Source of the DNA: Stutzerimonas xanthomarina
Lineage (GTDB): Bacteria > Pseudomonadota > Gammaproteobacteria > Pseudomonadales > Pseudomonadaceae
Reading direction: 5' to 3'
Assembly: GCF_003935375.1 (NCBI RefSeq)
Contig: NZ_RHQM01000004.1
Span: forward strand, 124,001 to 188,000
DNA: 64,000 nt
Positions 28,174 through 49,223 of this stretch are shown piece by piece. The position numbers and the translations under genes are program-made. Each line of letters begins with the position of its first letter. Position 1 is the stretch's first letter. Under the pieces are notes generated by a model that saw only the letters and a list, made by a program, of their open reading frames with translations, was not told the DNA's origin and did no database searches.

Positions 28174-28180
28174 CGCCCCG

Positions 28181-29262: not shown

Positions 29263-29264
29263 CC

Positions 29265-30311
29265 ATGACCTCCATCCCCACACCTTCCGGCATCTGGACG
29301 CTGCGCCTCGGTGGCATCAGCCTGCTGCTGCATCGGCGCAGTTGGTTGATGTTCACCCTGCTCGTGCTGGTGCTGCTGGGCTTGACCGTCCTGGCGACCA
29401 GCCTCGGCAGCGGCCATCTGGGCGTGCGCGACGTCATCGCCACCCTGACCGGAAACGGCAGCAGGCTGCAGGAAATCATGGTGTTCAAGATTCGCCTGCC
29501 GCGGGTCGCCGCCGCGATCATCGCCGGGCTGGCCATGGGCATGGCCGGCTGCCTGATCCAGACTCTGGTACGCAACCGCCTGGCGACACCGGACATGATC
29601 GGTGTGAACGAGGGCGCCTCGCTGGCTGTAGTCGTCTTCGCCCTCTACCTGACCCTCGGCAACTGGCCATGGTGGGCGTCGCCACTCGGAGCCGCACTGG
29701 CGGCCGCCGCACTGTTCGCCCTGTGCCGACGCCCCGGCGAGCAGGGCTACCTGTTCATCGTCATCGGCATTGCGCTGTCGGAACTGCTCGGCGCGCTCGG
29801 CGACTTCGCCATGTCGACGCAACCCCTCGCTCACCTGGGCAGCATCTACCTGTGGACCATGGGCCACTTCGCCGGTGTCAGCTATCAGACGGTCAAGCCC
29901 GTCGCACTGCTGCTGTTGCTGCTCTGCCCGCTGATGGCGCTGGTCAATCGGCCGCTGGTGCTGCTGCGCTTCGGCGACGCCACGGCGCAGAACCTCGGGG
30001 TGAAGGTGCCGCTGGTCCAGCTCGGCGTGCTCGCCCTGGCAATCGTGGTGGCCGCGCTGGGTACGGCGATCGGCGGGCCGGTGGTGTTCATCGCCATGGC
30101 CGCACCGATCCTCGCCTCCTGGCTGGCCCGCGACAACCTCGCCCCGCTGTGGCTATCGGCGCTGTGCGGCGCGGTATTGCTGCTAGGCAGCGACACCCTG
30201 GTGCGGGTGCTCGCCCAGCCCGAGGAAATCCCCACCGGCATCATGACGCGGCTGCTCGGGGGCATCCTGCTGCTCGGCCTGCTGCTCAAGGACAGACGAG
30301 GAGCTGACTGA
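29265..30311 (+). CDS. FecCD-family ABC transporter permease (second of two)
   Basis: 348-residue permease paralogous to the preceding gene. Seen: VFKIRLPRVAAAIIAGLAMG, CLIQTLVRNRLATPDMIGVN, and the C-terminal AIGGPVVFIAMAAPILASWL. The frame is open well upstream inside the first permease, but the ATG at 29265 with GGTGAGG before it is the natural start. Its stop overlaps the ATPase start by one base (TGATG), showing strong coupling. Confidence 0.87.
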   Translation: MTSIPTPSGIWTLRLGGISLLLHRRSWLMFTLLVLVLLGLTVLATSLGSGHLGVRDVIATLTGNGSRLQEIMVFKIRLPRVAAAIIAGLAMGMAGCLIQTLVRNRLATPDMIGVNEGASLAVVVFALYLTLGNWPWWASPLGAALAAAALFALCRRPGEQGYLFIVIGIALSELLGALGDFAMSTQPLAHLGSIYLWTMGHFAGVSYQTVKPVALLLLLLCPLMALVNRPLVLLRFGDATAQNLGVKVPLVQLGVLALAIVVAALGTAIGGPVVFIAMAAPILASWLARDNLAPLWLSALCGAVLLLGSDTLVRVLAQPEEIPTGIMTRLLGGILLLGLLLKDRRGAD

Positions 30312-31144
30312 TGACTGCCCTGCGCGCGGAAAACCTGCACTTCGCCTATCAGGACAAGGTCGTGCTCGACGGCGTCTCCTTCAGCCTGCCCAGAGGCAAG
30401 CTGATCGGAATCGTCGGCCCCAATGGCAGCGGCAAATCCACGCTGCTCAAGCTGCTCGCCCGCCAGCTGCCGCTGCAACGCGGCACCGTGGAGATCCACG
30501 GCAAGCCGCTGCTGGGCTACTCGCTCAAGGCGCTGGCGCGAAAGCTGGCCTTTCTGCCGCAACGGCCGGTGCTGGCCGAAGGCATCCGCGTGGAACAGCT
30601 GGTGCAGTATGGCCGCCATCCGCACCAGGGATGGTTCAACCAGTGGAGCGCGGAAGACGCCCGCCAGGTTGCACGCGCCCGCGAGGTGATGCAGCTCGAT
30701 GCGATCTGGCAACGCAGCGCCGCCTCGCTCTCGGGTGGCCAGGCGCAACGGGCTTGGCTCGGCATGATCCTGGCGCAGAACACCGACCTGATCCTGCTCG
30801 ACGAACCCACCAGCGCGCTGGACATCGGCCACCAGGCCGAGGTGATGGAAGCCGTGCACCAGATCGCCGCGGCCGGGCGCACGGTGCTGATCGTGATCCA
30901 TGACCTCGGCGTGGCCGCCCGTTACTGCGATGAGCTGATCGCCCTGGCCGACGGCCGGGTGCAGGCCATCGGCCCGGCGCGGCAGGTGATGACCAAGGCC
31001 CTGGTCGACCGCCTTTACGATACCGACGTCGACATCCTTCCGGCCCCCGGCGACGGCGCGCCGGTGATCGTGCCGCGCCGCCGTACCCGTGGCCTCCAGC
31101 AACCCACTCTCAGAGAACACCCCGAAACGGAAGGTATGCAATGA
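30311..31144 (+). CDS. ABC transporter ATPase for iron-siderophore import
   Basis: 277-residue FepC-like ATPase. Walker A is VGPNGSGKSTLLKLL near residue 35, the signature motif is SLSGGQAQRAWLGMILAQN, Walker B is LILLDEPTSALDIGHQ, and the switch histidine is in LIVIHDLGVAARY. It overlaps the permease by one base and the binding-protein gene by four bases. It powers import through the two FecCD permeases. Confidence 0.92.
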   Translation: MTALRAENLHFAYQDKVVLDGVSFSLPRGKLIGIVGPNGSGKSTLLKLLARQLPLQRGTVEIHGKPLLGYSLKALARKLAFLPQRPVLAEGIRVEQLVQYGRHPHQGWFNQWSAEDARQVARAREVMQLDAIWQRSAASLSGGQAQRAWLGMILAQNTDLILLDEPTSALDIGHQAEVMEAVHQIAAAGRTVLIVIHDLGVAARYCDELIALADGRVQAIGPARQVMTKALVDRLYDTDVDILPAPGDGAPVIVPRRRTRGLQQPTLREHPETEGMQ

Positions 31145-32085
31145 CCCTCAAGACCCCACGTCACCTGGCCGCCGCTCTGCTGGCCAGCCTGCTCGCCCTG
31201 CCCGCCCTGGCCGATACGCGCCAGGTGAGCGATGCCATGGGCAACACCGTCACCGTGCCGGAAGCGCCGAAGCGGGTGATCACCCTCAGCGAAATCGATC
31301 TGGATACCGCACTCGCACTTGGCGTCACCCCGGTCGGCACCATCAACGGCCGCGGCCAGGCCGCACCGCCGCGCTACCTCGAAGGCAAGCTGCCGGCCGA
31401 CGTCCCGGTGGTCGGTGATCTGGACAATCCGAATCTGGAAACCCTGCTCGAACTGGAGCCCGATCTGATCCTGACCGGCCCGGTAAAGCCGGAGCAGCTG
31501 GCGATCCTTAACGAGATCGCGCCGACCGTGATCACCTACAGTTGGGGTCGCCCCTGGCAGGAAACCATGCAGCGCACCGCACAGATCCTGAACAAGAACG
31601 CCGAAGCCAACGCCGTGCTGGACCGCTACCGCGCGCGGATCGAGCAGGCGCGTGAGCGGCTGAGCACGCATCAGGGCGAAACCCTCAGCATCGTGCGCTG
31701 GAATCCCAAGGGCCCCTCGTACATGTTCAAGGACGCCTTCGTCAGCACGGTCATCAAAGACATTGGCCTCACCCGCCCCGCCCATCAGCAGGACCCCGGC
31801 CACACCCACTCGATGGCACTGAGCCTGGAGTCCTTGGAACTGCTGGATGCCGACTGGCTGGTGATCGGCACCCTGGCTACCAGCGGCGAGGCGGTCGAGG
31901 CCATGCGTCAGGCCGAACAGACCCCGGCGTTCGGCCAGCTCTCGGCGCTGCAGAGCAAACGCTTCGGCGCTGTCGACGGCTCGCTGTGGACGTCCGTCGG
32001 CGGTCCGCTGGCGGCACTGCAGGTGATCGAGGACGTCGAGCGCTTGCTCGGCAAGGCCGATGCAGAGCCGGTCACAAGGGACTGA
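31141..32085 (+). CDS. Periplasmic iron-siderophore binding protein
   Basis: 314-residue FepB/FatB-type binding protein with a signal peptide (about 1-24, ending LPALA). Family segments: VSDAMGNTVTVPEAPKRVIT at the mature N terminus and PNLETLLELEPDLILTGPVK, the inter-domain region of class III binding proteins. Starts four bases inside the ATPase gene. It ends the operon, 13 bases before a convergent methyltransferase gene, with no clear terminator hairpin. Confidence 0.9.
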   Translation: MTLKTPRHLAAALLASLLALPALADTRQVSDAMGNTVTVPEAPKRVITLSEIDLDTALALGVTPVGTINGRGQAAPPRYLEGKLPADVPVVGDLDNPNLETLLELEPDLILTGPVKPEQLAILNEIAPTVITYSWGRPWQETMQRTAQILNKNAEANAVLDRYRARIEQARERLSTHQGETLSIVRWNPKGPSYMFKDAFVSTVIKDIGLTRPAHQQDPGHTHSMALSLESLELLDADWLVIGTLATSGEAVEAMRQAEQTPAFGQLSALQSKRFGAVDGSLWTSVGGPLAALQVIEDVERLLGKADAEPVTRD

Positions 32086-35881: not shown

Positions 35882-37813
35882 TCACACCGGCGCTTCGATA
35901 CCCAGCACGCGCATGCGCCGGTACACCGTCGGGCGCGACACGCCAAGCTCCCGCGCCACCGCGCTGACATTCCAGCGATGCCGGCGCAACTGGTCGCGCA
36001 GTGCCGACGCCGACTCGGGTTCGGATGGGGCCGACGACTGACGACAGCGCGCCAGAATCGGCGGCAGGCATTCGTCCGGAAGATCCTGCACGGTGATCTC
36101 GTCCCCCTCACAGGTTGCCAGCGCGTATTGCAGCACGTTGCGCAGCTCGCGGATGTTGCCCGGCCAGGGATAGGCCAGCAGCGCGCTCATGGCATCGCCA
36201 CGCAGGTGCGGATTGCCCGGCCGGCCTTCGGCAAGTTCGGCGAACACCCGCTCGATGAGAAAGCCCTTGTCGGCGCGCTCGCGCAGCGGAGGCAGCTTCA
36301 ACGACGCACCGTTCAGGCGGTAGAACAGGTCCTCGCGAAACGCCCCACTCTCGACCATCTGCCGCAGGTCGCGGTGACTCGCGGCCACCACGCGGATATC
36401 CACCTTCACCGGTTTCTCGGCACCCAGCGGCATCACTTCCTGCTCGGCCAGCACCCGTAACAGCCGGGTCTGCAAGTGCAGCGGCATGTCGCCGATTTCA
36501 TCGAGGAACAGCGTGCCGCCGTCGGCCTGCTGGATCAGTCCGCGCATGCCCTTGCTGCGCGCGCCGGTAAAGGTGCCAGGGGCGTAGCCGAACAGCTCGC
36601 TTTCGATCAGCGACTCGGGCATGGCGCCGCAGTTGATCGCCACGAAGGGTTTGCTGCGCCGGCAGCCGCTCTCATGCAGCGCCTTGGCCAGCCGTTCCTT
36701 GCCGGTCCCGGTCTCGCCATTGAGCAACACGTTCAACGGCTCGCTGCACAGGCGTCTGGCGCGGGCGAGCATCTTGCGCATCACCGGGTCGTCGTCAGCC
36801 AGCACATCGAGCGCGGAGTGCCCGCCGGGCGCGCTGCGTTCGGCCGGCTCCGGTGCACGGCGACGCGGCTCCATCAAGGCGGCGAAGAACAGCTGGTGGC
36901 GATGGGTGCGAAAGGCACGGACCTGGTCGTGACTGGCGTAGGGAATGCTCAGCACATCACCCAGCTCGCAATCGAACAGCTGATCGATGCGCGCCTGCGC
37001 CGGGGTGCCAAAGGGGCCCGGCATCATCAGCCCGTGCTCGGCCAGCAGACCGCGAGCGGCGGTGTTGCCGGCAAGCAGCTCGCCATCGTCACCCAGTGCC
37101 AGCAGGTAGCGGCGGTTGATCAGGACGAACTCGCGGGAGCCGTCGAAACAGAGGATCGGCCGCTCGCGATAGACGCGCATGAAGTAGGCGTCCTCGATCA
37201 TCCGCGCGTACTGCTTGACCAGCTGCAGGGCGAAGGTCTGGGAATCCTTGGTCGGTGGTGAATGCAGCGCGGAGATATCCAGCACTGCCAGCAGCTGGCC
37301 GTGCGGGTTGAACATGGGCACCGCGGTGCAGGTGAGGTTGGTATGCCAGACGCTGAAATGATCCTGCTGGTGACAGGTCAGCGCCTGCTGCTCCTTGATG
37401 CAGGTGCCGACAGCGCAGGTGCCGGCGTGGTCCTCGCCCCAGTCCGAACCAAGGAACAAGCCGGTCTTGCGATGCGCCTTTTCGTCTGCCGGGTCGCCGA
37501 GAAACTGCACGGCGATACCGCGGTTGTCGGTCAGCAAGATCACGTAACCCAGCTCGGCGATCTGCCGGTACAGCTGCTCCACCCCGGCGCGGGCGACATT
37601 GATCAGCTCGTCGGCCTGATCCTGATGCTCGCGCAACACCTGCCGCGGGACGAAACGGGCTTCGGCAGGTCGCGCCGGATCCAGACCGTAGTCGTGCACA
37701 CAGCGATGCCAGGAGCGCGCGATGATCGGATCACGATCACCGGGCAGGTGCGGCGCATTGGCCAGGGAAAGCACCGCGTCGATATGGCTGACCGGACCGG
37801 ATAGCAGATTCAT
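35882..37813 (-). CDS. acoR: Sigma-54-dependent activator of acetoin catabolism
   Basis: 643 residues. N-terminal GAF-like sensor region (about 40-230, with ILLTDNRGIAVQFLGD and a cysteine-rich GTCAVGTCIKEQQALTCHQQ), a PAS-like middle, then the AAA+ domain: Walker A LLNGETGTGKERLAKAL, sigma-54 contact loop PGTFTGARSKG (GTFTGA rather than GAFTGA), and Walker B GGTLFLDEIGDMP. The C terminus is a Fis-type helix-turn-helix (WNVSAVARELGVSRPTVYRR). The ATG at 37811-37813 follows GGAGGAGGC. It is divergent from the acetoin operon, whose control region has matching sigma-54 elements. Confidence 0.9.
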   Translation of the reverse strand: MNLLSGPVSHIDAVLSLANAPHLPGDRDPIIARSWHRCVHDYGLDPARPAEARFVPRQVLREHQDQADELINVARAGVEQLYRQIAELGYVILLTDNRGIAVQFLGDPADEKAHRKTGLFLGSDWGEDHAGTCAVGTCIKEQQALTCHQQDHFSVWHTNLTCTAVPMFNPHGQLLAVLDISALHSPPTKDSQTFALQLVKQYARMIEDAYFMRVYRERPILCFDGSREFVLINRRYLLALGDDGELLAGNTAARGLLAEHGLMMPGPFGTPAQARIDQLFDCELGDVLSIPYASHDQVRAFRTHRHQLFFAALMEPRRRAPEPAERSAPGGHSALDVLADDDPVMRKMLARARRLCSEPLNVLLNGETGTGKERLAKALHESGCRRSKPFVAINCGAMPESLIESELFGYAPGTFTGARSKGMRGLIQQADGGTLFLDEIGDMPLHLQTRLLRVLAEQEVMPLGAEKPVKVDIRVVAASHRDLRQMVESGAFREDLFYRLNGASLKLPPLRERADKGFLIERVFAELAEGRPGNPHLRGDAMSALLAYPWPGNIRELRNVLQYALATCEGDEITVQDLPDECLPPILARCRQSSAPSEPESASALRDQLRRHRWNVSAVARELGVSRPTVYRRMRVLGIEAPV

Positions 37814-37868
37814 GCCTCCTCCTCGAAGTGCTCGCGCCAGACCGAGGCGGGCTACTCCAGCGAAACGC

Positions 37869-37887
37869 TTTATTGTTTTGCAATAAA
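37869..37887. promoter_or_regulatory. AT-rich dyad upstream of acoR
   Basis: Perfect seven-bp inverted repeat TTTATTG/CAATAAA with a five-base loop, about 55 bases upstream of the acoR start. It may be an operator for acoR itself or a hairpin in its leader; its sequence differs from the CGCTTTACA sites nearby. Confidence 0.35.
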
Positions 37888-37966
37888 CGAAGGATAAACC
37901 ATAGAACCGCACAGACCAGCCTGAACTTTAGAAGCACTTTGTCTGTGCATATTGTTTGTCGCCGTA

Positions 37967-38208: not shown

Positions 38209-38712
38209 ATGCACGATTCAGCTCGCCCGCAGGGCACGCTAAACCGGCGACGCTTTCTTTCCATTTCCGGCCAGTCCTTGCTGGCACTCAGCCTGTCGCA
38301 ACTGATCCCGGTGAACCTGCTCGCCGAGGAACGCCTGCCAGACCTGCCCGATGGCCTGTTACGCATGGGCCGCGACGTCTTCCCCCACACTTTCATCAGC
38401 CACCACCACTACGTGCAGCCCCTGCTCGGCCTGGTGGACGAGCAGCCGGCCCTGGTCGCTCGCGGCCTGGACGAACTGCAGCAGCAGGCGCAGCAAGCCC
38501 ATGGCTCGCCATTCGAACAGCTCGACGAGGCCGAGCGGGTGGCCCTGCTGACCGACATCGAAAACACCCCCTTCTTCAAGGCCGTGCGCAGCAGCCTGAT
38601 GTTCGGCCTGTACGACAACAAGGCGCTGTTCCCGCTGTTCGGCTACGAGGGTTCGTCCTGGGAATACGGCGGCTACGTCAACCGCGGCTTCAACGATCTG
38701 AACTGGCTCTGA
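38209..38712 (+). CDS. Tat-exported gluconate 2-dehydrogenase subunit 3-like protein
   Basis: 167 residues. A twin-arginine signal (NRRRFLSISGQSLLALSLS) leads into a small helical domain of the gluconate_2-dh3 type (ending SSWEYGGYVNRGFNDLNW). Such subunits accompany GMC flavoprotein dehydrogenases and carry them across the membrane by the Tat route. It is the first gene behind the sigma-54 promoter, and the GMC gene follows after 49 bases. AGGAGCC precedes the ATG. No cytochrome c subunit accompanies this copy, unlike the paralogous set at 59-62.7 kb. Confidence 0.8.
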   Translation: MHDSARPQGTLNRRRFLSISGQSLLALSLSQLIPVNLLAEERLPDLPDGLLRMGRDVFPHTFISHHHYVQPLLGLVDEQPALVARGLDELQQQAQQAHGSPFEQLDEAERVALLTDIENTPFFKAVRSSLMFGLYDNKALFPLFGYEGSSWEYGGYVNRGFNDLNWL

Positions 38713-38761: not shown

Positions 38762-40339
38762 ATGGCAACTTTTGCCCAGGATGACGATGGCGTCGTGGTG
38801 ATCATCGGCTCCGGTGCCGGCGGCGGGACGCTCGCCAACGCGCTGGCCAAGCAGAAGATTCGCAGCGTGGTGCTGGAAGCCGGCAAGCGCCACACGCTGG
38901 AGGACATCGAGAACGACGAGTGGGCGATGTTCAAGAAGATATCCTGGCTCGACAAGCGCCAGGCCGCCGGTGGCTGGCACCTGACCGAGAACAACCCGAC
39001 CCTGCCCGCCTGGATCGTCAAGGGCGTCGGCGGCAGCACGGTGCACTGGGCCGGCATCGCCCTGCGCTTTCGCGACTTCGAATTCAAGATGCAGAGCATC
39101 AATGGCGACATCGCCGGCGCCAACCTGCTCGACTGGCCGGTGACACTGGAGGAGATGGCGCCCTGGTACGAGAAGGCCGAGAAGCACATGGGCGTGACCG
39201 GGCCGAGCACCGGCATGGCCTATCACCCGTGGCACAACTCCTTCAAGGTGCTGGCCACCGGCGCCAAGCGGGTCGGCTACAAGGAGATCCTCTCCGGGCC
39301 GATGGCGATCAACACCGAGCCCTATGACGACCGCGCCGCCTGCCAGCAGCTCGGCTTCTGCATGCAGGGCTGCAAGATGGGCGCGAAGTGGTCGACGCTC
39401 TACACCGACATTCCCCGCGCCGAAGCCAGCGGTTATTGCGAAGTGCGGCCGCATTCGATGGTGCTGCGCATCGAGCATGACGCCAAGGGCCGCGCCAATG
39501 CCGTGGTCTACGCCGATGCCAGCGGCGCCATCCAGCGGCAGAAGGCCCGGGTGGTCTGCGTGGCGGGCAACTCCATCGAGTCGCCGCGGCTGTTGCTCAA
39601 CTCCGCCTCGGCGATGTTCCCCGACGGGCTGGCCAACTCCTCCGGCCAGGTCGGACGCAACTACATGACCCACACCACCGCCGGCATCTTCGCCGTGATG
39701 CCCAAGCCGGTGAACATGCACCGCGGCACCACCTGCGCCGGGGTCATCTCCGACGAGTCCTACAACGATCCCTCGCGCGGTTTCGTCGGCGGTTACCGGC
39801 TGGAAATCCTCGCCCTCGGCCTGCCCTTCCTCTCCGCCTTCCTTGACCCGACACCCAAGGGCTGGGGCAAGCAGTTCACCTCGCGGATGGAGAAGTACAA
39901 CCACATGTCAGGCGTCTGGCTGTGCGGCGAAGACCTGCCGCTGGAGAACAACCGCATCACCCTGCACGGCAGCGAAAAGGACCAGTACGGCCTGCCGATT
40001 CCGGTGGTGACCAAGACCGACCATCCGATGGATGCCGCCATGCGCAAGCACGGCGTCGCCGCCACCGCCAAGTGCTACGAGGCCGCCGGTGCCACCGACA
40101 TCATCGAGCTGCCGCCCTACCCGGCCAGCCACAACATGGGCACCAACCGCATGAGCGCCAAGGCCCGTGACGGCGTGGTGAACAAGTGGGGCCAGAGCCA
40201 TGACATCCCCAACCTGTTCGTCTCCGACGGCAGCCAGTTCACCACCAGCGGCGGCCAGAACCCCACTCTCACCATCGTCGCGCTGGCCCTGCGCCAGGCC
40301 GAGCAGATCGGCCGCCTGCTCAACGAACGCGCAATCTGA
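38762..40339 (+). CDS. GMC-family FAD-dependent alcohol/polyol dehydrogenase
   Basis: 525 residues. The FAD-binding motif is VVVIIGSGAGGGTLANALAK near residue 12. The GMC C-terminal domain holds ASHNMGTNRMS and NLFVSDGSQFTTSGGQNPTL, with the histidine and asparagine expected at the active site. A cysteine cluster (CQQLGFCMQGCKMGAK) may bind an Fe-S cluster, as in bacterial FAD glucose dehydrogenases, or form disulfides. It pairs with the Tat small subunit ahead of it. Since it is embedded in the acetoin operon, a diol related to 2,3-butanediol is a reasonable substrate guess, but this is inference. Confidence 0.83.
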   Translation: MATFAQDDDGVVVIIGSGAGGGTLANALAKQKIRSVVLEAGKRHTLEDIENDEWAMFKKISWLDKRQAAGGWHLTENNPTLPAWIVKGVGGSTVHWAGIALRFRDFEFKMQSINGDIAGANLLDWPVTLEEMAPWYEKAEKHMGVTGPSTGMAYHPWHNSFKVLATGAKRVGYKEILSGPMAINTEPYDDRAACQQLGFCMQGCKMGAKWSTLYTDIPRAEASGYCEVRPHSMVLRIEHDAKGRANAVVYADASGAIQRQKARVVCVAGNSIESPRLLLNSASAMFPDGLANSSGQVGRNYMTHTTAGIFAVMPKPVNMHRGTTCAGVISDESYNDPSRGFVGGYRLEILALGLPFLSAFLDPTPKGWGKQFTSRMEKYNHMSGVWLCGEDLPLENNRITLHGSEKDQYGLPIPVVTKTDHPMDAAMRKHGVAATAKCYEAAGATDIIELPPYPASHNMGTNRMSAKARDGVVNKWGQSHDIPNLFVSDGSQFTTSGGQNPTLTIVALALRQAEQIGRLLNERAI

Positions 40340-40364
40340 CCCGCCACTTCAAGGGAGTCCACCC

Positions 40365-41354
40365 ATGACCCAGCCCAACAACTCGCAGCGCCTGTGGATG
40401 TACGAGCAGATGCTGACCAGCCGCTACATGGAGGAATCCATCGAGCGCATCTACATGGAAGGCAAGACGCCGGTATTCAACATGGCCAAGGGCCCGATTC
40501 CCGGCGAGATGCACCTTTCCAACGGCCAGGAGCCCTGCGCCGTGGGTGTCTGCGCCCACCTCGAGGCTGCGGACATCGTCACCGCCACCCACCGCCCGCA
40601 CCACATCGCCGTGGCCAAGGGCGTCGACCTCAACGAGATGATGGCCGAGATCTTCGGCAAGGCGACCGGCCTGTCTGGCGGCCGCGGCGGGCACATGCAC
40701 CTGTTCGATGGCCGGGTGAACTTCTCCTGCTCGGGGATCATCGCCGAGGGCATGGGCCCGGCGGTCGGCGCGGCGCTGTCGCGGCAGATGCAGGGCAAGC
40801 CCGGCGTGGCCGTCTCCTTTATCGGCGAGGGCGCGGCCAACCAGGGCGCCTTCCACGAAACGCTGAACCTCGCCGCGCTGTGGAAGCTGCCGGTGGTGTT
40901 CGTCATCGAGGACAACGCCTGGGGCATCTCGGTGGCCAAGGCCAGCGCCACCTGCATCAAGCAGCACCACGTACGCGCCGTGGCCTACGGCATGCCCGGT
41001 GTGTTCGTCGAGAACAACGACCCGGACGGCGTGTTCCGTGCCGCCGGTGAAGCCATCGAGCGCGCCCGCGCCGGCGGCGGCCCGACCCTCATCGAGATCG
41101 AAACCTACCGCCTGGCCGGCCACTTCATGGGCGACGGCGAAACCTACCGCCCCGAAGGCGAGAAGGACGGCCTGATGAAAAAGGACCCGATCCCCGGCTA
41201 CCGCCAGCGCCTGATCGACGAGGGCGTGATGAGCGAGGCGCAGGCCGAAGACATCGCCGCACGCGCCCGCGGGCGCATCGATGAAGCGGTGCAGTTCGCC
41301 CGCGAGAGCCCTTATCCGCGTCCCGAAGAGGCGCTGGAGAAGGTCTTCGTGTAG
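40365..41354 (+). CDS. acoA: Acetoin dehydrogenase E1 component, alpha subunit (TPP-dependent)
   Basis: 329 residues. The thiamine diphosphate motif is SFIGEGAANQGAFHETLNLA and the phosphorylation-loop-like region is YRLAGHFMGDGETYR. With AcoB it cleaves acetoin to acetaldehyde and passes the acetyl group to the E2 lipoyl domain. The ATG at 40365 follows GGGAG with good spacing; the open frame upstream lies inside the GMC gene. Unusually, the butanediol dehydrogenase gene separates it from acoB. Confidence 0.88.
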   Translation: MTQPNNSQRLWMYEQMLTSRYMEESIERIYMEGKTPVFNMAKGPIPGEMHLSNGQEPCAVGVCAHLEAADIVTATHRPHHIAVAKGVDLNEMMAEIFGKATGLSGGRGGHMHLFDGRVNFSCSGIIAEGMGPAVGAALSRQMQGKPGVAVSFIGEGAANQGAFHETLNLAALWKLPVVFVIEDNAWGISVAKASATCIKQHHVRAVAYGMPGVFVENNDPDGVFRAAGEAIERARAGGGPTLIEIETYRLAGHFMGDGETYRPEGEKDGLMKKDPIPGYRQRLIDEGVMSEAQAEDIAARARGRIDEAVQFARESPYPRPEEALEKVFV

Positions 41355-41434: not shown

Positions 41435-42523
41435 ATGAACAGCCAAACCACCATGACCGCCGCCGTCTGGCACGGTCGCAAGGACATCCGCCTGGAACAG
41501 GTGCCGCTACCCGGAGCGCCGCAACCGGGCTGGGTGCAGATCCGCGTGCACTGGTGTGGCATCTGCGGTTCCGATCTGCACGAATACCTCGCCGGCCCGG
41601 TGTTCATCCCGGTGGATGCGCCGCACCCGCTCACCGGCATCAAGGGCCAATGCATCCTCGGCCACGAGTTCTGCGGCGAGATCGTCGCCACCGGTGAAGG
41701 CGTCGAAGGCTACGCGCCCGGTGACAAGGTCGCCGCGGACGCCTGCCAGCACTGCGGCCAGTGCCGTTTCTGCAAGACCGGCCAATACAACCTCTGCGAA
41801 CAGCTGGCCTTCACCGGGCTGATGAACAACGGGGCCTTCGCCGAACTGGTCAACGTGCCGGCCGAGCTGCTCTACCGCCTGCCGGAAGGATTCCCAATGG
41901 AAGCCGGCGCGCTGATCGAGCCACTGGCGGTGGGTATGCACGCGGTGAAGAAGGCCGGCAGCCTGCTCGGCGAAACCGTGGTGGTGGTCGGCGCCGGCAC
42001 CATCGGCCTGTGCACCATCATGTGCGCCAAGGCTGCGGGCGCCGGCCAGGTGATCGCCCTGGAGATGTCCGCCGCACGCAAGGCCAAGGCGCTGGAAGTC
42101 GGTGCCAACCGGGTCATCGACCCCAGCGAGTGCGACGCCATCGCCGAAATCAAGGCGCTCACCGGCGGCTACGGTGCCGGCGTCTCCTTCGAGTGCATCG
42201 GCCACAAGGCCACCGCCAAGCTCGCCATCGACGTGATCCGCAAGGCTGGTCGCTGCGTGATGGTCGGCATCTTCGAGGAACCCTCGGAATTCAACTTCTT
42301 CGAGATCGTCGCCACTGAAAAACAGGTGATCGGCTCGCTCGCCTATGCCGGCGAATTCGCCGATGTCATCGCCCTGATCGACGACGGGCGCATCGATGTC
42401 ACCCCGCTGATCACCGGCCGCATCGGCCTGGACAACATCCTCGAACAGGGCTTCGAGGAGCTGGCCAACCACAAGGACCGCAACGTCAAGATCATCGTCA
42501 GTCCCGGCGCGCTGGCCGGCTGA
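41435..42523 (+). CDS. 2,3-butanediol dehydrogenase (zinc MDR family)
   Basis: 362 residues. Catalytic zinc site CGICGSDLHEY and the following GHEFCGEIV; structural zinc loop ADACQHCGQCRFCKTGQYNLC; NAD-binding motif VVVVGAGTIGLCTI. These match NAD-dependent (R,R)-butanediol/acetoin dehydrogenases. It supplies acetoin from 2,3-butanediol for AcoAB. The first ATG (AGAGGAATACCACC ahead of it) gives MNSQTTM; a second ATG six codons on is also possible. Co-directional between acoA and acoB. Confidence 0.87.
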   Translation: MNSQTTMTAAVWHGRKDIRLEQVPLPGAPQPGWVQIRVHWCGICGSDLHEYLAGPVFIPVDAPHPLTGIKGQCILGHEFCGEIVATGEGVEGYAPGDKVAADACQHCGQCRFCKTGQYNLCEQLAFTGLMNNGAFAELVNVPAELLYRLPEGFPMEAGALIEPLAVGMHAVKKAGSLLGETVVVVGAGTIGLCTIMCAKAAGAGQVIALEMSAARKAKALEVGANRVIDPSECDAIAEIKALTGGYGAGVSFECIGHKATAKLAIDVIRKAGRCVMVGIFEEPSEFNFFEIVATEKQVIGSLAYAGEFADVIALIDDGRIDVTPLITGRIGLDNILEQGFEELANHKDRNVKIIVSPGALAG

Positions 42524-42536: not shown

Positions 42537-43559
42537 ATGACCACAGCAGTAAAAGAAAGAAAGCTCACTGTCGCCCGCGCCATGGCTGAAGCCGTGGCGC
42601 AGGAGATGCGCCTGGATCCGAAGGTGTTCGTGATGGGCGAGGACATCGGCCAGCTCGGCGGCGTGTTCGGCAACACCCGTGGGCTGTATGACGAGTTCGG
42701 CAAGACGCGCATCCGCGACACGCCGATCTCCGAAACCGCCTTTATCGGCGCCGCCGTGGGCGCCGCCTCGGACGGTATGCGGCCGATCGTCGAGCTGATG
42801 TTCGTCGACTTCTTCGGCGTCTGCATGGACGCGATCTACAACCTGATGGCCAAGAACACCTACTTCTCCGGCGGCAAGGTGCCTGTGCCGATGGTGCTGA
42901 TGGCTTCCACCGGCGCCGGCTACTCGGATGCGGCCCAGCACTCGCAGTGTCTCTACGGCACCTTCGCCCACCTGCCGGGCATGAAGGTGGTGGTGCCGAG
43001 CAACGCCTACGACGCCAAGGGCCTGATGACCGCGGCCATCCGTGACGACAACCCGGTGGTCTACCTCTTCCACAAGGCGCTGCAGGGCATGGGCTGGCTG
43101 GGCACCGAGAAAGGCGCCACGGTGCCGGTGCCGGAAGAGCCCTACATCGTCGAGATCGGCAAGGCCAAAACCGTGCGCGAGGGCCGCGACGTCAGCCTGG
43201 TCAGCCTCGGCGCCGGCGTTCACCACGCCTTGCGCGCCGCCGCGCAGCTGGAGAAGGACGGCGTCAGCGCCGAGGTCATCGACCTGCGCAGCCTGGTGCC
43301 GCTGGACCGCGAGCACGTCATCGCCTCGGTCCGCAAAACCGGCCGGCTGATTGTGATCGACGAGGACTATCACAGCTTCGGCGTCAGCGGCGAAATCATC
43401 GCCAGCGTCGTCGAGCACGACATCGGCATGCTCAAGGCACGCCCGCAGCGGGTGGCCTTCCCCGACATCCCCATCCCCTTCACCCCGGTCATGGAGCAAT
43501 GGGCCCTGCCCAACGCCGACAAGATCGTGGCCGCCTACCACGCCATGCATAAGGAATGA
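42537..43559 (+). CDS. acoB: Acetoin dehydrogenase E1 component, beta subunit
   Basis: 340-residue transketolase-type subunit. Seen: VFVMGEDIGQLGGVFGNTRG near the N terminus and the C-terminal domain with LVPLDREHVIASVRKTGRLI. It forms the heterotetramer with AcoA. It starts 13 bases after the butanediol dehydrogenase stop and is followed after five bases by the free lipoyl domain gene. Confidence 0.9.
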   Translation: MTTAVKERKLTVARAMAEAVAQEMRLDPKVFVMGEDIGQLGGVFGNTRGLYDEFGKTRIRDTPISETAFIGAAVGAASDGMRPIVELMFVDFFGVCMDAIYNLMAKNTYFSGGKVPVPMVLMASTGAGYSDAAQHSQCLYGTFAHLPGMKVVVPSNAYDAKGLMTAAIRDDNPVVYLFHKALQGMGWLGTEKGATVPVPEEPYIVEIGKAKTVREGRDVSLVSLGAGVHHALRAAAQLEKDGVSAEVIDLRSLVPLDREHVIASVRKTGRLIVIDEDYHSFGVSGEIIASVVEHDIGMLKARPQRVAFPDIPIPFTPVMEQWALPNADKIVAAYHAMHKE

Positions 43560-43564: not shown

Positions 43565-43798
43565 ATGAGTACCCCCATCGTGATTGCAGACGACCTCTGG
43601 GAAGGCGACGCCGAAGCGGTGATCACCTCCTGGCTGGTCAGCGACGGCGCCGAAGTGGCCGCCGGAGACCTGGTCGCCGAGGTCATGTCGGAAAAGGCCC
43701 AGTTCGAGATCGAAGCCCCGGTTGCCGGGGTGCTGAAGATCATCGAGGAAGAAGACGCGGTGATCGCCAAGGGTGCGGTCATCGGCCAGGTGGAATAG
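43565..43798 (+). CDS. Free-standing lipoyl (biotinyl/lipoyl-attachment) domain protein
   Basis: 77 residues forming a single lipoyl domain, with Lys44 in the hairpin VMSEKAQFEIEAP as the lipoylation site. In ordinary E2 proteins this domain is fused to the catalytic acyltransferase; here it is a separate gene followed two bases later by the catalytic domain. The start ATG at 43565 is preferred over 43556 because it gives a clean domain boundary. It should carry acetyl groups between E1 and the separate E2. Confidence 0.85.
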   Translation: MSTPIVIADDLWEGDAEAVITSWLVSDGAEVAAGDLVAEVMSEKAQFEIEAPVAGVLKIIEEEDAVIAKGAVIGQVE

Positions 43799-43800
43799 CC

Positions 43801-44514
43801 ATGACTCGATTGGAACTCCTGCCCGAGCGCGCGCCCCAACGGGTGCCCGAACGGGTACCGCTCAAAGGCATGCGCAAGATGATCGCGGCGAAGATGCACG
43901 AAAGTCTGCAGACCACCGCGCAGCTGACCCACCACAGCGAATGCCGGCTGGATGCGCTGAAAACCCGACGCGCCGAGCTGAAGGCCGAGGGCAGCGCGGT
44001 GTCCGTGCAGGACCTGTTGCTGCTCAAGGTGATCGAGACGCTGCAGGCCCATCCCGGCCTCAATGCCACGCTGGAGGACGACGTGATCCACCAGCACGTG
44101 GCGGTGCATCTGGGCCTCGCCATCCCGCTGCCGGGCGACCTGCTGGTCGCGCCGGCGCTGTTCGACGCCGAACAGCTGGACGGCGAAAGCCTGTGCCTGG
44201 CGCGCAAGGCGCTGGTAGACAAGGCCCTGGCCGGCAAGCTGTCGGTCAAGGAGCTGACCGGCGCCACCTTCACCGTCTCCAACCTGGGGCTGTCGCGGGT
44301 GCACCACTTCACGCCGATCCTCAATCCGCCGCAGGTGGCGATCCTGGGTGTCGGCGGCATTCAGCGGCGGCTGGAACTCGGGCCCATCGGCGAGCTGGTG
44401 GAAGTCGAGTGGATGGGCCTGTCGCTGACCTTTGACCATCGCGCCGTCAACGGCTCGCCCGCGGCGGAGTTTCTCGATGATCTGTGCCGGCGCATCGAGG
44501 AGTACGCGGCATGA
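43801..44514 (+). CDS. E2 acyltransferase catalytic domain without lipoyl or subunit-binding domain
   Basis: 237 residues covering only the 2-oxoacid dehydrogenase acyltransferase catalytic domain, from KGMRKMIAAKMHESLQTTAQ to the active-site motif DHRAVNGSPAAEFL. The family motif is HxxxDG; here Asn stands in place of the usual Asp. A short basic arginine/proline-rich N terminus (ERAPQRVPERVP) could replace the peripheral-subunit-binding linker. Lies between the free lipoyl domain gene and the lipoate ligase gene, which it overlaps by four bases. Acetyl transfer to CoA in acetoin cleavage is the expected role. Confidence 0.8.
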   Translation: MTRLELLPERAPQRVPERVPLKGMRKMIAAKMHESLQTTAQLTHHSECRLDALKTRRAELKAEGSAVSVQDLLLLKVIETLQAHPGLNATLEDDVIHQHVAVHLGLAIPLPGDLLVAPALFDAEQLDGESLCLARKALVDKALAGKLSVKELTGATFTVSNLGLSRVHHFTPILNPPQVAILGVGGIQRRLELGPIGELVEVEWMGLSLTFDHRAVNGSPAAEFLDDLCRRIEEYAA

Positions 44515-45278
44515 ACGGCATCGCCCGGTTCAGCGTGGGCGCCGGCCTGAATGCCGAGCGGGCCTTGTTGCAGCGCGTCTGCGACGGGTTGTTCGACTGC
44601 CAGTTGCTGCTCTGGCGCCCCACCGGCCAGGCGCTGGTGATGCCCGGCAGCTTCGAGCGCCGGCCCGGTTTCGCCCTGGCCAGCCAACGCTGCGCGGCGC
44701 AGGGCTGGCCGATTCTGCTGCGCGACACCGGGGGCGAGCCGGTGCCGCAATCGTCGGCGGTGCTCAATATCGCCCTGGCCTGCGCCCTGCCGGCCGGCGA
44801 CGAGGTCGGCAAGCGCATCGACATCGCCTATGAACGGTTGCTCGAACCCCTGGCGCTGTGGCTGGCGGAAAACGGCCTCAAGGCCGGTGTAGGCGCGGTG
44901 CCGGGTGCATTCTGCGACGGCCGCTTCAACCTCACCCTGGAGGGCCGCAAGCTGGCCGGCACCGCCCAACGCTGGCGGCGCAGCCGCGATGGACGCCCCG
45001 TGGTGCTGGCGCATGCCGCGCTGCTGATCGAAGACTGGCGCGAACCCATGGCCGACGTGGTGAACCGCTTCTACCACGCCTGCGCCAGCGACCTGCGCTG
45101 CCAGGCCGCGAGCCATCTGGCGCTCGCCGAGCGACTGGCCAATGCCTGGGCAACCGCCACATCCCTGCCCGAATGCTATCAGCGCGTCCTCGCCTGGCAG
45201 GGCCTGGAACTCGGCGCCCGCGCCAGCACTTATCCGCCCGAAGGCCTCGCCGCCGGACGGCACTCCCCCTTGCTTTGA
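44511..45278 (+). CDS. Lipoate-protein ligase A family protein
   Basis: 255 residues of the biotin/lipoate protein ligase fold. Seen: a GRKLAGTAQRWRR segment with the conserved lysine of the substrate-binding loop, followed by VVLAHAALL, as in LplA/LipM-type enzymes. It overlaps the E2 gene by four bases, so it is made together with its probable target, the free lipoyl domain. It may transfer lipoate or octanoate; sequence alone does not decide. The upstream ATG at 44484 lies inside the E2 gene and is not used. Confidence 0.78.
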   Translation: MNGIARFSVGAGLNAERALLQRVCDGLFDCQLLLWRPTGQALVMPGSFERRPGFALASQRCAAQGWPILLRDTGGEPVPQSSAVLNIALACALPAGDEVGKRIDIAYERLLEPLALWLAENGLKAGVGAVPGAFCDGRFNLTLEGRKLAGTAQRWRRSRDGRPVVLAHAALLIEDWREPMADVVNRFYHACASDLRCQAASHLALAERLANAWATATSLPECYQRVLAWQGLELGARASTYPPEGLAAGRHSPLL

Positions 45279-45658: not shown

Positions 45659-47791
45659 ATGAAATTCAAACAGTCGAGTTTAAGGGTACAGATAATCATG
45701 GCGGCCTCGCTTCTTGCGATCACGCCACTGCACGCATCAGACAGAGTCATTACCGACAAGGAACTGTCTGACGAATCGAACACCACTGATTGGCTGGCTT
45801 ACGGGCGAACACACTCCGAACAGCGATTCAGCCCCCTCAAAGACATCAACGTAGAGAACGTCAGCGGGCTCAAGCCTGAATGGTACGCGCCGCTGCCGGA
45901 TCGCTCCGATATCGTCGGAACACCTTTGGTCGTCGATGGGGTCATGTACTACGTTGGTGAAATGAACAGAACACGTGCGTTCGATGCACGCACGGGCAAG
46001 ATGCTCTGGGAATATGACCCACAAGTTTCCAAGGAGATCATCGACAACAACATGAAGAAGGTCTTCTGGAAGCACAGCCGAGGCCTTTCAACATACGGGG
46101 ACAAGTTATTCATCGCCACATGGGATGGCCGCCTGATTGCAATCAACAGAAAGGACGGCAAGGAAGTCTGGCAGACCCGAACCTTCGATCACGACCAGCC
46201 GTTGAATATCACAGGTCATCCCAAGGCCTTCGATGGCAAGGTATTTGTAGGCAATGGCGGAACAGAACTTGGGCCGATGCGCGGTTATGTGACCGCCTAT
46301 GACACTGAAACGGGTAAACAGGTTTGGCGTTTCTATATCGTCCCTGGCAATCCCGCAGATGGATTCGAAGACGCCGCTCAGGAAATGGCCGCCAAAACCT
46401 GGACTGGCCGGTGGTGGGAAAACGGCGGCGGCGGTAATGCCTGGCATGGCTGGACTTACGACGAGAAATACAACCAGCTCATCTTCGGGACAGGCAACGG
46501 TGGGCCATGGAACATCAAAGTGCGCAGCCCGGACGGCGGCGACAACCTGTTCCTGTGTTCTGTCGTGGCTGTAGATGCGGATACGGGCGAATACAAATGG
46601 CACGTCCAGACTGCACCAGGCGACACCTGGGACTACAACTCGAACATGGACATCGTGCTGGCCGATCTGAAAGTCGATGGCAAGGATGTTGATGCCGTAT
46701 TGCATGCGCCGAAGAACGGCTTCTTCTATACGATTGACCGCTCGAACGGCAAGGTGCTGTCCGCTGAAAAATTCACTGACGCCAACTGGTCAACCAAGTA
46801 CGACCTGAAAGAGCAGCGCCATATTGTTGCGGACGATGCCAGGTATCCCGATGGCGAGAAGAATATCTATCCGTCGGCATTCGGCGCTCACTCGTGGCAT
46901 GCAATGTCCTATAACCCCGAGTTGAATCTTGCCTTTATCCCCACCAACCATCTGGGCAACACCTTCAAGGACGACGGCAAGAACACGAAGCCTGGCCACA
47001 AGATGGCGAACCACAAACTTTACCTGGGGCTGACCGGTTGGGAACTGACCAAGGACCCACACGAGTCACGCGGTTCCCTACAGGCCTGGGACCCGGTCAG
47101 GAACAAGCGTGTGTGGCAAGTAAATCAGAAGAGCCCATGGGGTGGCGGAACCTTGACCACAGCCGGAAACCTGGTTTTCCAGGGCCAGCCTGATGGAATG
47201 CTCAAAGCCTACGATGCCCGCACTGGTGATGAACTTTGGTCCTATGACGTAGGCCTCGGTATCTCTGCGCCACCGATTACCTACAAGCTGGATGGCAAGC
47301 AGATGGTTTCCCTGCTCGTGGGTCCTGGTGGTGCACTGGCCTCCAACTTCGGCGGCTCGGGTGAACTGGGATTTGAAAGCCACGGCTGGAAATATGGTGT
47401 GCATGAACGCCGCATCATGACGTTCTCGCTTGACGGAAAAGCGGTTATTCCAGAACAGCCTGCACCGCAACTTGCCAAGCCAATCATTGATGAGAAGTTT
47501 GAGGTCGATGCCAAAAAGGCCGAGGCAGGCGCGGGTGTCTTTGCGGAGAACCTCTGTGTTGGCTGTCATGGCGCCGGAGCTGTTGCGGGTATGAAAGCAC
47601 CCGATCTGCGGGAGTCGCCGATATTGCTCAAAGGCAGTGAGAAGGCGTTCGAGAGTGTTGTGCGCGGCGGTGCGTTACTTGCCAATGGCATGCCCAAGTT
47701 CCCGGAACTGACAGATGCAGAGCTGGAGAGCATTCGCCTTTTTGTTCGTCGGCAAGCGCGCGATGGTGTGAAGTCTGGCGGCGGACATTAA
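45659..47791 (+). CDS. PQQ-dependent quinohemoprotein alcohol dehydrogenase
   Basis: 710 residues: signal peptide (about 1-26, ending TPLHA), an eight-bladed PQQ propeller, and a C-terminal cytochrome c domain with CVGCH at 633-637. The catalytic aspartate is Asp325 in PGDTWDYN; Asn327 two residues on argues for calcium rather than lanthanide use. The adjacent-cysteine pair that sits over PQQ in most members (CC before the VxRG strand) is missing: residues 138-144 read KHSRGLS and the only other cysteine is Cys300. Codon use and AT content differ visibly from neighbours, suggesting recent acquisition. Oxidises an alcohol in the periplasm; substrate unknown. Confidence 0.85.
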   Translation: MKFKQSSLRVQIIMAASLLAITPLHASDRVITDKELSDESNTTDWLAYGRTHSEQRFSPLKDINVENVSGLKPEWYAPLPDRSDIVGTPLVVDGVMYYVGEMNRTRAFDARTGKMLWEYDPQVSKEIIDNNMKKVFWKHSRGLSTYGDKLFIATWDGRLIAINRKDGKEVWQTRTFDHDQPLNITGHPKAFDGKVFVGNGGTELGPMRGYVTAYDTETGKQVWRFYIVPGNPADGFEDAAQEMAAKTWTGRWWENGGGGNAWHGWTYDEKYNQLIFGTGNGGPWNIKVRSPDGGDNLFLCSVVAVDADTGEYKWHVQTAPGDTWDYNSNMDIVLADLKVDGKDVDAVLHAPKNGFFYTIDRSNGKVLSAEKFTDANWSTKYDLKEQRHIVADDARYPDGEKNIYPSAFGAHSWHAMSYNPELNLAFIPTNHLGNTFKDDGKNTKPGHKMANHKLYLGLTGWELTKDPHESRGSLQAWDPVRNKRVWQVNQKSPWGGGTLTTAGNLVFQGQPDGMLKAYDARTGDELWSYDVGLGISAPPITYKLDGKQMVSLLVGPGGALASNFGGSGELGFESHGWKYGVHERRIMTFSLDGKAVIPEQPAPQLAKPIIDEKFEVDAKKAEAGAGVFAENLCVGCHGAGAVAGMKAPDLRESPILLKGSEKAFESVVRGGALLANGMPKFPELTDAELESIRLFVRRQARDGVKSGGGH

Positions 47792-47954
47792 GCCGGCCAC
47801 GTCCAATCGCCAACTAAACACTTGAACCAATAACGCCTACATAGCCAGGCGTTACCACTGAGCAGAAACGCACGCGAATACCGTGAATGCCCACACGCAT
47901 TGCGGCTAACGGTATTCGCTGCACCCGCACAGTTACATTCGAAGGATCAGAACA

Positions 47955-49223
47955 ATGACAACAAGCCTGCGCTTCGGCAGCGGCGTTCTCGCCGCCTGCC
48001 TGTTCACTTCTGCCCACGCGGCCGAATATTCACCCGATCAGTTCCTCTTCGGCGACTGGAACGGCAGTCGCACCCGTCTGCATGAGGCCGGCGTCGACCT
48101 GCAGATCACCTACGTCAACGAGCTGGCCTGGAATACCCAGGGCGGCGATGACCATACCGGCACCTACTCCGATCAGCTGATGTTCGACGCCGCGCTGGAC
48201 CTGGAGAAACTGCTCGGCTGGTCCGGCGCCGGTTTCCGCTTCAGCGTGGTCAACCGCAACGGCGAGAACCTCAACGCCGAGGCCGATCTCGGCGTCCTGC
48301 TGCAACCCCAGGAAATACACGGCTACGGCAGCGTCACCCGGCTGGTGCAGTTCTATTACCAGCAAGCACTGCTGGACGACCGCCTGCTGGTCAAACTGGG
48401 CCGTTTGCCCATGAGCGGCGAGATATTCCCCTTCGCCTGCCCGTTCCAGAACCTCGGTTTCTGCGGCACGGTGCCCGGCTATGTCACACCGAACTGGTTC
48501 ACCTGGCCGATCAGCCAGTGGGGCGCCACCGCGCGTTACCAGCTGGATGCAGAGTGGTCGCTGCAGACGGCGCTTTATCAGGTCAACCCGCGTTTCACCG
48601 AGCGCGAGCAGGGCCTGAATTTCGGCAGCCCGTCGGGCACCACCGGCTACCACGCGGTTGCCGAGCTGGGCTGGACACCGACCTTCGCCGGCCAACCCGG
48701 CGCCTACCGTCTGGGCCTCTGGCGCAATACCGGCGATTTCGAGGACATCTACCGTGACGCTGCCGGCCGGCCGATGGCGCTTTCCGGCGCGCCAGCCGCC
48801 GAACACGACAAGGCCACCGGCGGCTATCTGATGGCCGAACAGCAGCTCTGGCAGAGCAGCGCGGTGGCCGAGCGACGCTTGAAGCTGTTCGCCAACTTCA
48901 TCCAGTCCGACCCGGACGTGACCTATATCGAGCGCATCTGGCAGGTTGGCGGCATCCTCTCCGCCCCCTTCGCCTCGCGCCCGAACGACGAGCTCGGCCT
49001 GGGCCTGGGCCGCCTGGAAATCAACGACGACGCCCGCAAGCACCTGCGCGAACAGGGCGAGCCGGTGCCGGACGTGGAATACCCCGCCGAACTCTACTAC
49101 CGCGTCGCCCTCACGCCGGCCATCTCGCTGACGCCGAACATCCAGTACTTCCACCGCCCTGGCGGCTTCGACGAGGCGGAGGACGTGGTGGTCGTAGGGC
49201 TGAAGACAGTGGTCAGCTTCTGA
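47955..49223 (+). CDS. OprB-family carbohydrate-selective porin
   Basis: 422-residue outer-membrane porin. Signal peptide about 1-23 (ending SAHA), then DQFLFGDWNGSRTRLHEAGV, the OprB-type N terminus, a 16-18-strand barrel pattern, and a terminal phenylalanine (VVSF). AAGGATC precedes the ATG. Base composition returns to the chromosomal norm here. It may bring in sugars or polyols for the periplasmic dehydrogenases nearby. Confidence 0.85.
   Translation: MTTSLRFGSGVLAACLFTSAHAAEYSPDQFLFGDWNGSRTRLHEAGVDLQITYVNELAWNTQGGDDHTGTYSDQLMFDAALDLEKLLGWSGAGFRFSVVNRNGENLNAEADLGVLLQPQEIHGYGSVTRLVQFYYQQALLDDRLLVKLGRLPMSGEIFPFACPFQNLGFCGTVPGYVTPNWFTWPISQWGATARYQLDAEWSLQTALYQVNPRFTEREQGLNFGSPSGTTGYHAVAELGWTPTFAGQPGAYRLGLWRNTGDFEDIYRDAAGRPMALSGAPAAEHDKATGGYLMAEQQLWQSSAVAERRLKLFANFIQSDPDVTYIERIWQVGGILSAPFASRPNDELGLGLGRLEINDDARKHLREQGEPVPDVEYPAELYYRVALTPAISLTPNIQYFHRPGGFDEAEDVVVVGLKTVVSF

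Follow-up and report, generated by a model that had tools for sequence, protein, structure and literature searches.

A split E2 with a free-standing lipoyl domain and a LipL-like transferase in Stutzerimonas xanthomarina and related bacteria

In textbook 2-oxoacid dehydrogenases, the swinging lipoyl arms are tethered to E2. Whether such a tether is needed is a question raised by the window analysed here, a stretch of 64,000 nucleotides on contig C40 of the 4.66 Mb genome of Stutzerimonas xanthomarina, in which the genes for E1 of a thiamine diphosphate (ThDP)-dependent dehydrogenase are accompanied by separate genes for a lipoyl domain, an E2 catalytic core and a protein of the LplA/LipB superfamily. 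With a probability of roughly two in three, these genes would encode a 2-oxoacid/acetoin-dehydrogenase-type system in which the lipoyl arm is a soluble carrier, is loaded by a LipL-like enzyme and depends on a shared E3.

The free lipoyl domain, the putative carrier (43,565–43,798, + strand), is a protein of 77 amino acids, or of 80 if the other possible ATG, at 43,556, is used. It matched the Pfam family Biotin_lipoyl (PF00364) with 45.9 bits (cut-off 22.1), and the nearest PDB matches of its structure model (mean predicted local distance difference test score, pLDDT, 95.3) were lipoyl and biotinyl domains. Its predicted lipoylation site, Lys44 (codon 43,694–43,696, +), lies in an M-x-x-K motif that was found in 82 of the 82 lipoyl proteins extracted from related loci. 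These loci came from a lipoyl-family pattern search of genome contigs, which gave 161 relatives and from which 80 loci were kept; all counts out of 80 below rest on them, and the motif totals of 82, 76 and 73 were drawn from the 80 loci together with L053 and L082. In the model, Lys44 sits on an exposed hairpin turn (residues 42–45, between strands 36–41 and 46–50) of a hammerhead-type lipoyl fold. By its modelled fold and its modifiable lysine, the protein is a lipoyl domain of the type found in 2-oxoacid dehydrogenases, and not a member of the LbpA/GcvH-like family, as its score with PF01597 (GCV_H) was 16.3 bits, under the cut-off of 22.2.

The E2 acyltransferase catalytic domain (43,801–44,514, +) has 237 residues, of which 16–235 are covered by Pfam 2-oxoacid_dh (PF00198, 191.3 bits); no lipoyl, subunit-binding or further Pfam family was found in this chain at E <= 0.1. 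Judged by its sequence, the core has the HxxxD/N active site of acyltransferases, but not the fused chain of a canonical E2. The active-site motif DHRxx[ND]G was present in 76 of 76 extracted E2 relatives. We considered the Asn in the motif of the window protein, DHRAVNG, as a mark of an inactive E2 and rejected this, since DHRAVNG, DHRAVDG, DHRAIDG and DHRALDG all occur among the relatives. Azotobacter E2p has a catalytic Asn in place of Asp.

The third gene (44,511–45,278, +) encodes 255 amino acids when counted from its ATG, while the open reading frame list begins it at a GTG, 44,484. Its product, a predicted LipL-like lipoyl/octanoyl transferase, matched Pfam LplA-B_cat (PF21948) with 47.4 bits (cut-off 27), and its relatives are annotated as lipoate-protein ligases. 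Beyond one family each, nothing in the three proteins exceeded a Pfam cut-off. The genes are tightly packed: 5 nt separate E1 beta from the lipoyl gene and 2 nt the lipoyl gene from E2, and the third gene overlaps E2 by 4 nt (ATGA). The ratio of nonsynonymous to synonymous substitution rates (dN/dS) against six relatives was 0.07–0.31 for the lipoyl gene (with few changes), 0.11–0.24 for E2, 0.19–0.25 for the third gene and 0.02–0.06 for E1 beta. Clearly, the genes are intact and under purifying selection, and their in-frame conservation is not due to chance. The original prediction had described three consecutive, coupled genes encoding a 77-residue lipoyl domain with Lys44, an E2 core of 237 residues devoid of a lipoyl or binding domain, and a third protein of the LplA family; Pfam matches and spacing agree with it, and the observation of a split E2 at this locus is confirmed.

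How widespread is this layout? A survey of other genomes for the same gene order had been suggested together with the prediction, and the order E1 beta–lipoyl–E2–transferase recurred in 71 of the 80 loci, although in four of these (L108, L113, L114 and L115) 1.2–1.7 kb separates E2 from the transferase gene. We asked if this gap hides an E3 in some Pseudomonas loci; in three loci inspected by eye on the + strand there was nothing E3-like. The remaining loci comprise four with lipoyl and transferase genes without E2, two with lipoyl and E2 genes without a transferase, two with lipoyl, E2 and transferase genes without E1 beta (of which one lies at the end of a contig and the other has a broken E2), and one truncated locus (L121). 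A stop codon stands between the lipoyl and E2 genes in all 75 of 75 loci. The 80 loci span Stutzerimonas, Pseudomonas, Halomonas and its kin, Marinobacter, Rhodobacterales, Cocleimonas and others. Within the family, 27 of 198 genomes have a split E2 (E <= 1e-60), as do 3 of 398 genomes drawn from the phylum (E <= 1e-40), the window's own among the latter. Actinomycetota and Halobacteria were covered through plasmid records rather than whole genomes, and there the order E1 alpha–E1 beta–lipoyl–E2 was present on Rhodococcus opacus and Halobaculum records. The same order occurs on a Sphingomonas paeninsulae plasmid, in a cluster resembling one for aromatic catabolism; there the transferase lies at a distance of about 7 kb.

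Three of the related loci deserve separate mention. On the R. opacus 1CP plasmid, lipA (lipoyl synthase; 7031–8041 of L187) lies directly 3' of the split E2, and is thus a lipoylation gene of another kind accompanying a free lipoyl domain. On an Aminobacter plasmid (L052), the E2 gene (8264–8965) has an in-frame stop in the region of the active-site motif and the operon lies by transposases; this operon is probably decaying. In Halomonas fontilapidosi (L150, 8001–9770), a remnant consisting of lipoyl, broken E2 and transferase genes was seen, with no E1 in the stretch.

Which enzyme would load the carrier? The third protein had been called an LplA-family ligase. The superfamily assignment holds, but the ligase chemistry probably does not: because a Cys and a Lys are conserved and there is no match to the LplA C-terminal domain, the protein is probably a Cys/Lys transferase of the LipB/LipL class. 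Both Cys135 (codon 44,913–44,915, +), the candidate acyl-thioester nucleophile, and Lys147 (codon 44,949–44,951, +), the catalytic lysine of the superfamily, were invariant in an alignment of 28 transferase relatives (A3). Cys135 was present in 72 of 73 extracted transferases, the exception being a 40-residue fragment at a contig end (L120); the 73 were taken from 79, as six loci in which the transferase match ran past a stop (L104, L122, L124, L126, L135 and L136) were left out. In three loci (L113, L153 and L154), the Lys was overlooked by the search pattern and is present by eye. No LplA C-terminal accessory domain was found by Pfam in the 255-residue chain, a separate LplB partner not having been searched for.

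In sequence searches (phmmer and a profile of the 28 relatives), the top matches of the third protein were 2p5i and 2p0l, which we take to be LipL-type structures. Cys135 aligns with a Cys in both of them, whereas Thermoplasma LplA has no Cys there in the printed alignment. The same two structures were the nearest folds of the model (pLDDT 92.9), with Z scores of 23.0 for 2p0l and 22.7 for 2p5i and a root-mean-square deviation of 2.5–2.6 over 215–216 residues; Thermoplasma LplA (Z 20.6) and LipB (Z 18.8) followed, though a lead of two or three Z units is small. The best NCBIfam match was octanoyl-[GcvH]:protein N-octanoyltransferase, that is, LipL, far under its cut-off. Thus, the window protein resembles LipL in its conserved Cys and Lys and in its best neighbours in both sequence and fold, but differs in this low score, in its length (255 residues against a model of 276 positions) and in coming from a genome that also has LipB. 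LipB itself acts through a Cys/Lys dyad and a thioester (PMC9307952), and relay work on LipL in S. aureus has been described (PMC5049849).

The prediction had also described this enzyme as dedicated to the carrier. In favour of that, the transferase was found in 27 of 27 split-E2 genomes and in 52 of the 171 others among the 198 genomes of the family (Fisher 7e-13, with two draws of 198 treated as one set and kinship uncorrected). On the other hand, those 52 genomes have the transferase but no split E2, and on the tree the copies that are linked to a split E2 do not separate from the stand-alone ones, four label changes being needed, so that the description holds only in part. The idea that the transferase is a partner of AcoC-type lipoyl domains generally was tried and found unsupported, as 15 of 29 genomes with AcoC (NF011457) have it, compared with 79 of 198 overall; one Paraburkholderia plasmid carries acoABC followed by a transferase relative. 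Stand-alone LipL-like genes, with no split-E2 genes in the stretch, were seen in family genomes at L062, L064, L066–L070, L072–L074, L076 and L077, and transferase relatives without an adjoining E1-type match in Klebsiella/Salinivibrio records (L054, 7917–8657, and L055, 7962–8696).

We then turned to the rest of the genome. PF00198 matched three proteins: the window E2, a SucB-like E2 at C9 that adjoins lipoamide dehydrogenase, and an AceF-like E2 at C44 with three lipoyl domains in a 677-residue frame. A fused AcoC elsewhere, which would have spoken against the split E2 as the functional one, was not found in the genome (NF011457, E <= 1e-60), the other two E2s reading as SucB and AceF. The lipoamide dehydrogenase model TIGR01350 (E3) gave 19 matches, none of them on the window contig. 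One exceeded the cut-off (C9:84010), and the next two better fit glutathione reductase and NAD(P) transhydrogenase. As the sole lipoamide dehydrogenase above the cut-off lies off the window contig, E3 must be shared, as had been expected from its absence from the cluster. Among the related loci, an E3-like match (30% identity) was found in 1 of 80. The genome has one other gene of the LplA/LipB superfamily, LipB, and two proteins of the GcvH family over the Pfam cut-off, one of which also exceeds the NCBIfam cut-off.

The four loci without E2 bear on the role of the carrier. Billgrantia gudaonensis, Halomonas faecis, Thioclava atlantica and a Defluviimonas bin, that is, two Halomonas-group and two Paracoccaceae genomes (L137, L143, L149 and L166), keep E1 alpha, E1 beta, lipoyl and transferase genes without an E2 gene. 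The Defluviimonas genome is a metagenome bin, and the completeness of the four is not stated. Five split E2 queries run against six E2-less stretches gave only a 19-residue match, in the Defluviimonas stretch (E 0.003). We also looked for a split E2 elsewhere in the four genomes and found none: their 14 PF00198 matches, 27–35% identical to the window E2, all lie in open frames of at least 397 amino acids, and the two that were read whole (L182 and L179) each have a lipoyl domain at the N-terminus of one continuous chain. As these four loci keep the lipoyl and transferase genes, the carrier does not need an E2 of the window type; the simplest inference from these sequences is that another E2, e.g., AceF, would accept the acyl group that the free carrier brings. 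Additionally, Haladaptatus has E1 alpha–E1 beta–lipoyl with no E2 in a 12 kb stretch, and a plasmid of Azospirillum sp. B510 (L190, 2901–6878) has E1 alpha, E1 beta and a free lipoyl gene followed by one for an AMP-binding protein, with no E2 in the stretch.

To what E1 is the carrier coupled? E1 alpha (40,362–41,354, +; ThDP dehydrogenase/lyase) matched PF00676 with 250.8 bits and carries the motif GHFMGD; E1 beta (42,537–43,559, +) matched PF02779 and PF02780. In a tree of 19 E1 beta rows, ten rows from loci with a free lipoyl gene (Pseudomonadota, Rhodococcus and two haloarchaea) fell on one side with support of 100/99, and four AcoB rows formed their own group, also at 100/99. A joint tree of E1 alpha and E1 beta (19 rows) separated a free-lipoyl clade (100/100) from an aco clade (100/99). 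By these trees, the window E1 belongs to a well-supported clade from Pseudomonadota, Rhodococcus and haloarchaea, outside the AcoA/AcoB clade. Azospirillum B510, which has a free lipoyl gene, fell outside this clade in both 19-row trees and was therefore excluded from the free group; because of its position, the separation of the lipoyl domain may have more than one origin. The GHFxGD motif of E1 alpha is common to the free-lipoyl clade and four AcoA rows (GHFEGD in AcoA), and four E1 alpha rows from systems with a fused E2 have HSMSD (two), HSMFD or HSSSD at this site; GHF[MI]GD was found in 79 of 79 extracted E1 alpha proteins.

Taken together, these results are consistent with the following course of events. 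Linked GMC, Zn and PQQ (pyrroloquinoline quinone) dehydrogenases would make a hydroxyketone such as acetoin. The transferase would move an octanoyl or lipoyl group, the donor probably being GcvH or LipB-derived, onto Lys44 through a thioester at Cys135. E1 would cleave the hydroxyketone and acylate the free lipoyl domain, the acylated carrier would diffuse to the E2 core (or to another E2), where the acyl group would pass to coenzyme A (CoA), and the reduced carrier would be reoxidised by the single housekeeping E3. The comparison of a free lipoyl domain with an acyl-carrier protein, made in the original prediction, is strengthened by the existence of loci without E2, while the diffusion of the carrier is a step that we infer.

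Several points weigh against this course of events. It is drawn from sequences, and the lipoyl protein might bind E2 or E1 non-covalently. The third protein does not reach the LipL equivalog cut-offs of NCBIfam (NF053589, 45.1 of 400 bits; NF047857, 29.9 of 450 bits), and because it scores so far under them we named it LipL-like rather than filing it as LipL. The transferase stands alone in 52 genomes and its copies intermix, so it need not be specific for the carrier. Two of the 80 loci (L119 and L152) have lipoyl and E2 genes with no transferase match in the whole stretch, and searches of the stretches from Rhodococcus, Azospirillum and two haloarchaea gave no relative of the transferase. 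E1 alpha falls under both equivalog cut-offs for pyruvate dehydrogenase (PDH) E1 alpha, so acetoin is one candidate substrate. Moreover, the placement of the free-lipoyl clade varies: it stood beside AcoB at 81/81 in the 19-row E1 beta tree, a tree of 31 rows, which carried long-branch warnings, grouped it with three fused-E2 rows (80/80), and in the joint tree it lay next to the aco clade at only 67/48 and a constraint joining it with the fused-E2 rows was not rejected (p 0.345). A sister relationship to acetoin E1, which we had accepted at 81/81, was dropped as a settled result in view of the 80/80 placement and the joint tree.

How do other explanations fare? In one of them, non-covalent contacts join the lipoyl protein to the E2 core, the two work like any ordinary E2 complex, and the split makes no kinetic difference. 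In most loci the genes are indeed neighbours with little space between them, but four loci have lipoyl and transferase genes and no such E2, and the E2s encoded elsewhere in these four genomes are distant proteins in long frames, so that we consider this explanation rather unlikely. The same four loci, together with the Haladaptatus stretch and the Azospirillum B510 operon, which belongs to a different E1 lineage, could be read in another way, namely that the lipoyl protein serves an acceptor other than CoA via E2, e.g., in a redox or hydrolytic step, and that E2 is optional. This appears improbable, as 75 of the 80 loci have E2 next to the carrier (in one case a broken E2), and every E2 relative extracted retains the active-site motif.

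Two further alternatives concern the chemistry at either end of the system. A true ATP-dependent lipoate-protein ligase of the LplA type, scavenging free lipoate for the carrier, would be expected to belong to the same superfamily and to conserve Lys147, as the third protein does; a relative is annotated as lipoate--protein ligase in a public record, and in the fold comparison Thermoplasma LplA comes next after 2p0l and 2p5i. Such a ligase is nevertheless unlikely here, given the invariant Cys135, shared with 2p5i and 2p0l and absent from Thermoplasma LplA in the printed alignment, and given the lack of a second domain by Pfam, a search that did not extend to a separate LplB partner. As for E1, it might use an ordinary 2-oxoacid (pyruvate or a branched-chain one), the split being that of a degenerate PDH or branched-chain 2-oxoacid dehydrogenase. 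The best PDB matches of E1 alpha and E1 beta are of the PDH type, no acetoin E1 being named among the matches listed, and in one tree the clade groups with fused-E2 rows on long branches (80/80), a placement that the joint tree does not reject. We regard this as quite unlikely, because E1 alpha has GHFxGD, as AcoA does, in place of the HSMSD, HSMFD or HSSSD of the fused-E2 rows, and because a GMC dehydrogenase is linked in most loci. For oadhAB2 of Haloferax volcanii, a pair not placed on our trees, no substrate was identified and pyruvate and 2-oxoglutarate were reported to be excluded (PMC8305020). The label of acetoin dehydrogenase given in the prediction is plausible: the motif and the AcoB-side placement speak for it, and the separate E1 clade and the fused-E2 placement against it.

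The carrier system that we favour can be compared with several known ones. With AceF and SucB, the E2s of 2-oxoacid dehydrogenases, it shares the lipoyl fold, the PF00198 core and DHRxx[ND]G; unlike them, its 77- and 237-residue proteins are not covalently linked and have no match to a peripheral subunit-binding domain. With acetoin dehydrogenase (AcoABC), it shares the GHFxGD motif, and its E1 alpha and E1 beta match a Paraburkholderia pair at 40% and 46%, but the Paraburkholderia AcoC (L057) is one 372-residue protein with a lipoyl domain and, by eye, an alpha/beta-hydrolase-like part, whereas the window carrier and its PF00198-type core are on separate genes and its E1 is in its own clade. 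GcvH is also a free lipoyl carrier shuttling between enzymes, but of another family and pathway. LbpA, the free lipoyl protein of Hdr-like sulfur oxidation, is likewise a single protein with a linked lipoylation gene and with specific ligases (PMC6067878); it differs in being GcvH-like and serving the Hdr-like pathway, while the window carrier is of the E2 type and lies beside E1 and E2.

In a search of the literature, with most subscription journals outside it, none of the titles and abstract openings listed described a lipoyl domain that stands alone next to E1/E2 in a bacterium. In the archaeon H. volcanii, oadhAB2, the subject of work by Wanner and Soppa in 2002, is reported to include an unattached lipoic-acid-binding domain beside E1, and no transferase is known to be linked to it. 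If so, the separation of a lipoyl domain next to E1 has a precedent. The present analysis adds how the layout is distributed among bacteria, an E1 clade that spans two domains of life, the variants without E2 and the LipL-like partner.

The neighbouring genes complete the picture of the cluster. Upstream and divergent lies a sigma-54-type activator (35,882–37,912, −), identified by its sigma-54 activator core, which is AcoR-like and the probable regulator; none of the 25 listed NCBIfam models (of 26) reached its cut-off, and a relative is present in 71 of 80 related loci. A scan for sigma-54 promoters gave 3 matches in 64 kb, with 2.85 expected and none by the cluster, and sigma-70 and terminator scans did no better than shuffles. 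Next come a small subunit of the gluconate 2-dehydrogenase subunit 3 family (38,209–38,712, +; PF13618, 30.3 bits, cut-off 23.4), with a twin-arginine-type N-terminus (RRRFL) by eye, and a GMC-family flavin dehydrogenase (38,762–40,339, +; PF05199 and PF00732), the probable supplier of a ketone substrate; the GMC dehydrogenase and its small subunit occur in 67 of 80 loci. Between E1 alpha and E1 beta lies an accessory Zn alcohol dehydrogenase, threonine/butanediol dehydrogenase-like (41,435–42,523, +; PF08240/PF00107), matched in 47 of 80 loci, distant paralogues included. Downstream of the transferase, a PQQ-dependent alcohol dehydrogenase (45,659–47,791, +; TIGR03075, 543 bits, cut-off 480) is a lineage-specific neighbour, matched in 14 of 80 loci; by eye, it has a cytochrome c-like C-terminus and is followed by a porin-like gene (45,659–49,223 for both). 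Elsewhere in the window (26,080–32,085), a TonB receptor, FecCD-type permeases, an ATPase and a binding protein resemble, by eye, a siderophore uptake locus.

The split system is a real and under-described variant. We tentatively extend this to a broader possibility, in which such loci represent an ancient family of ThDP enzymes that spans two domains of life, with a free lipoyl acyl carrier, exchangeable acceptors (its own or a housekeeping E2) and, in Pseudomonadota, a LipL-like relay beside LipB. LipM and LipL have been demonstrated in Firmicutes and Tenericutes, and a 2023 survey states that Proteobacteria have only LipB, never LipM, while raising unknown amidotransferases as a possibility (PMC10332631). 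If Pseudomonadota do have a LipL-like transferase in addition to LipB, the known lipoylation routes would be extended. The loci without E2 pose the question of which E2 accepts a foreign acyl-lipoyl protein, and the detached-carrier family as a whole offers a natural way to test whether the tether is required.

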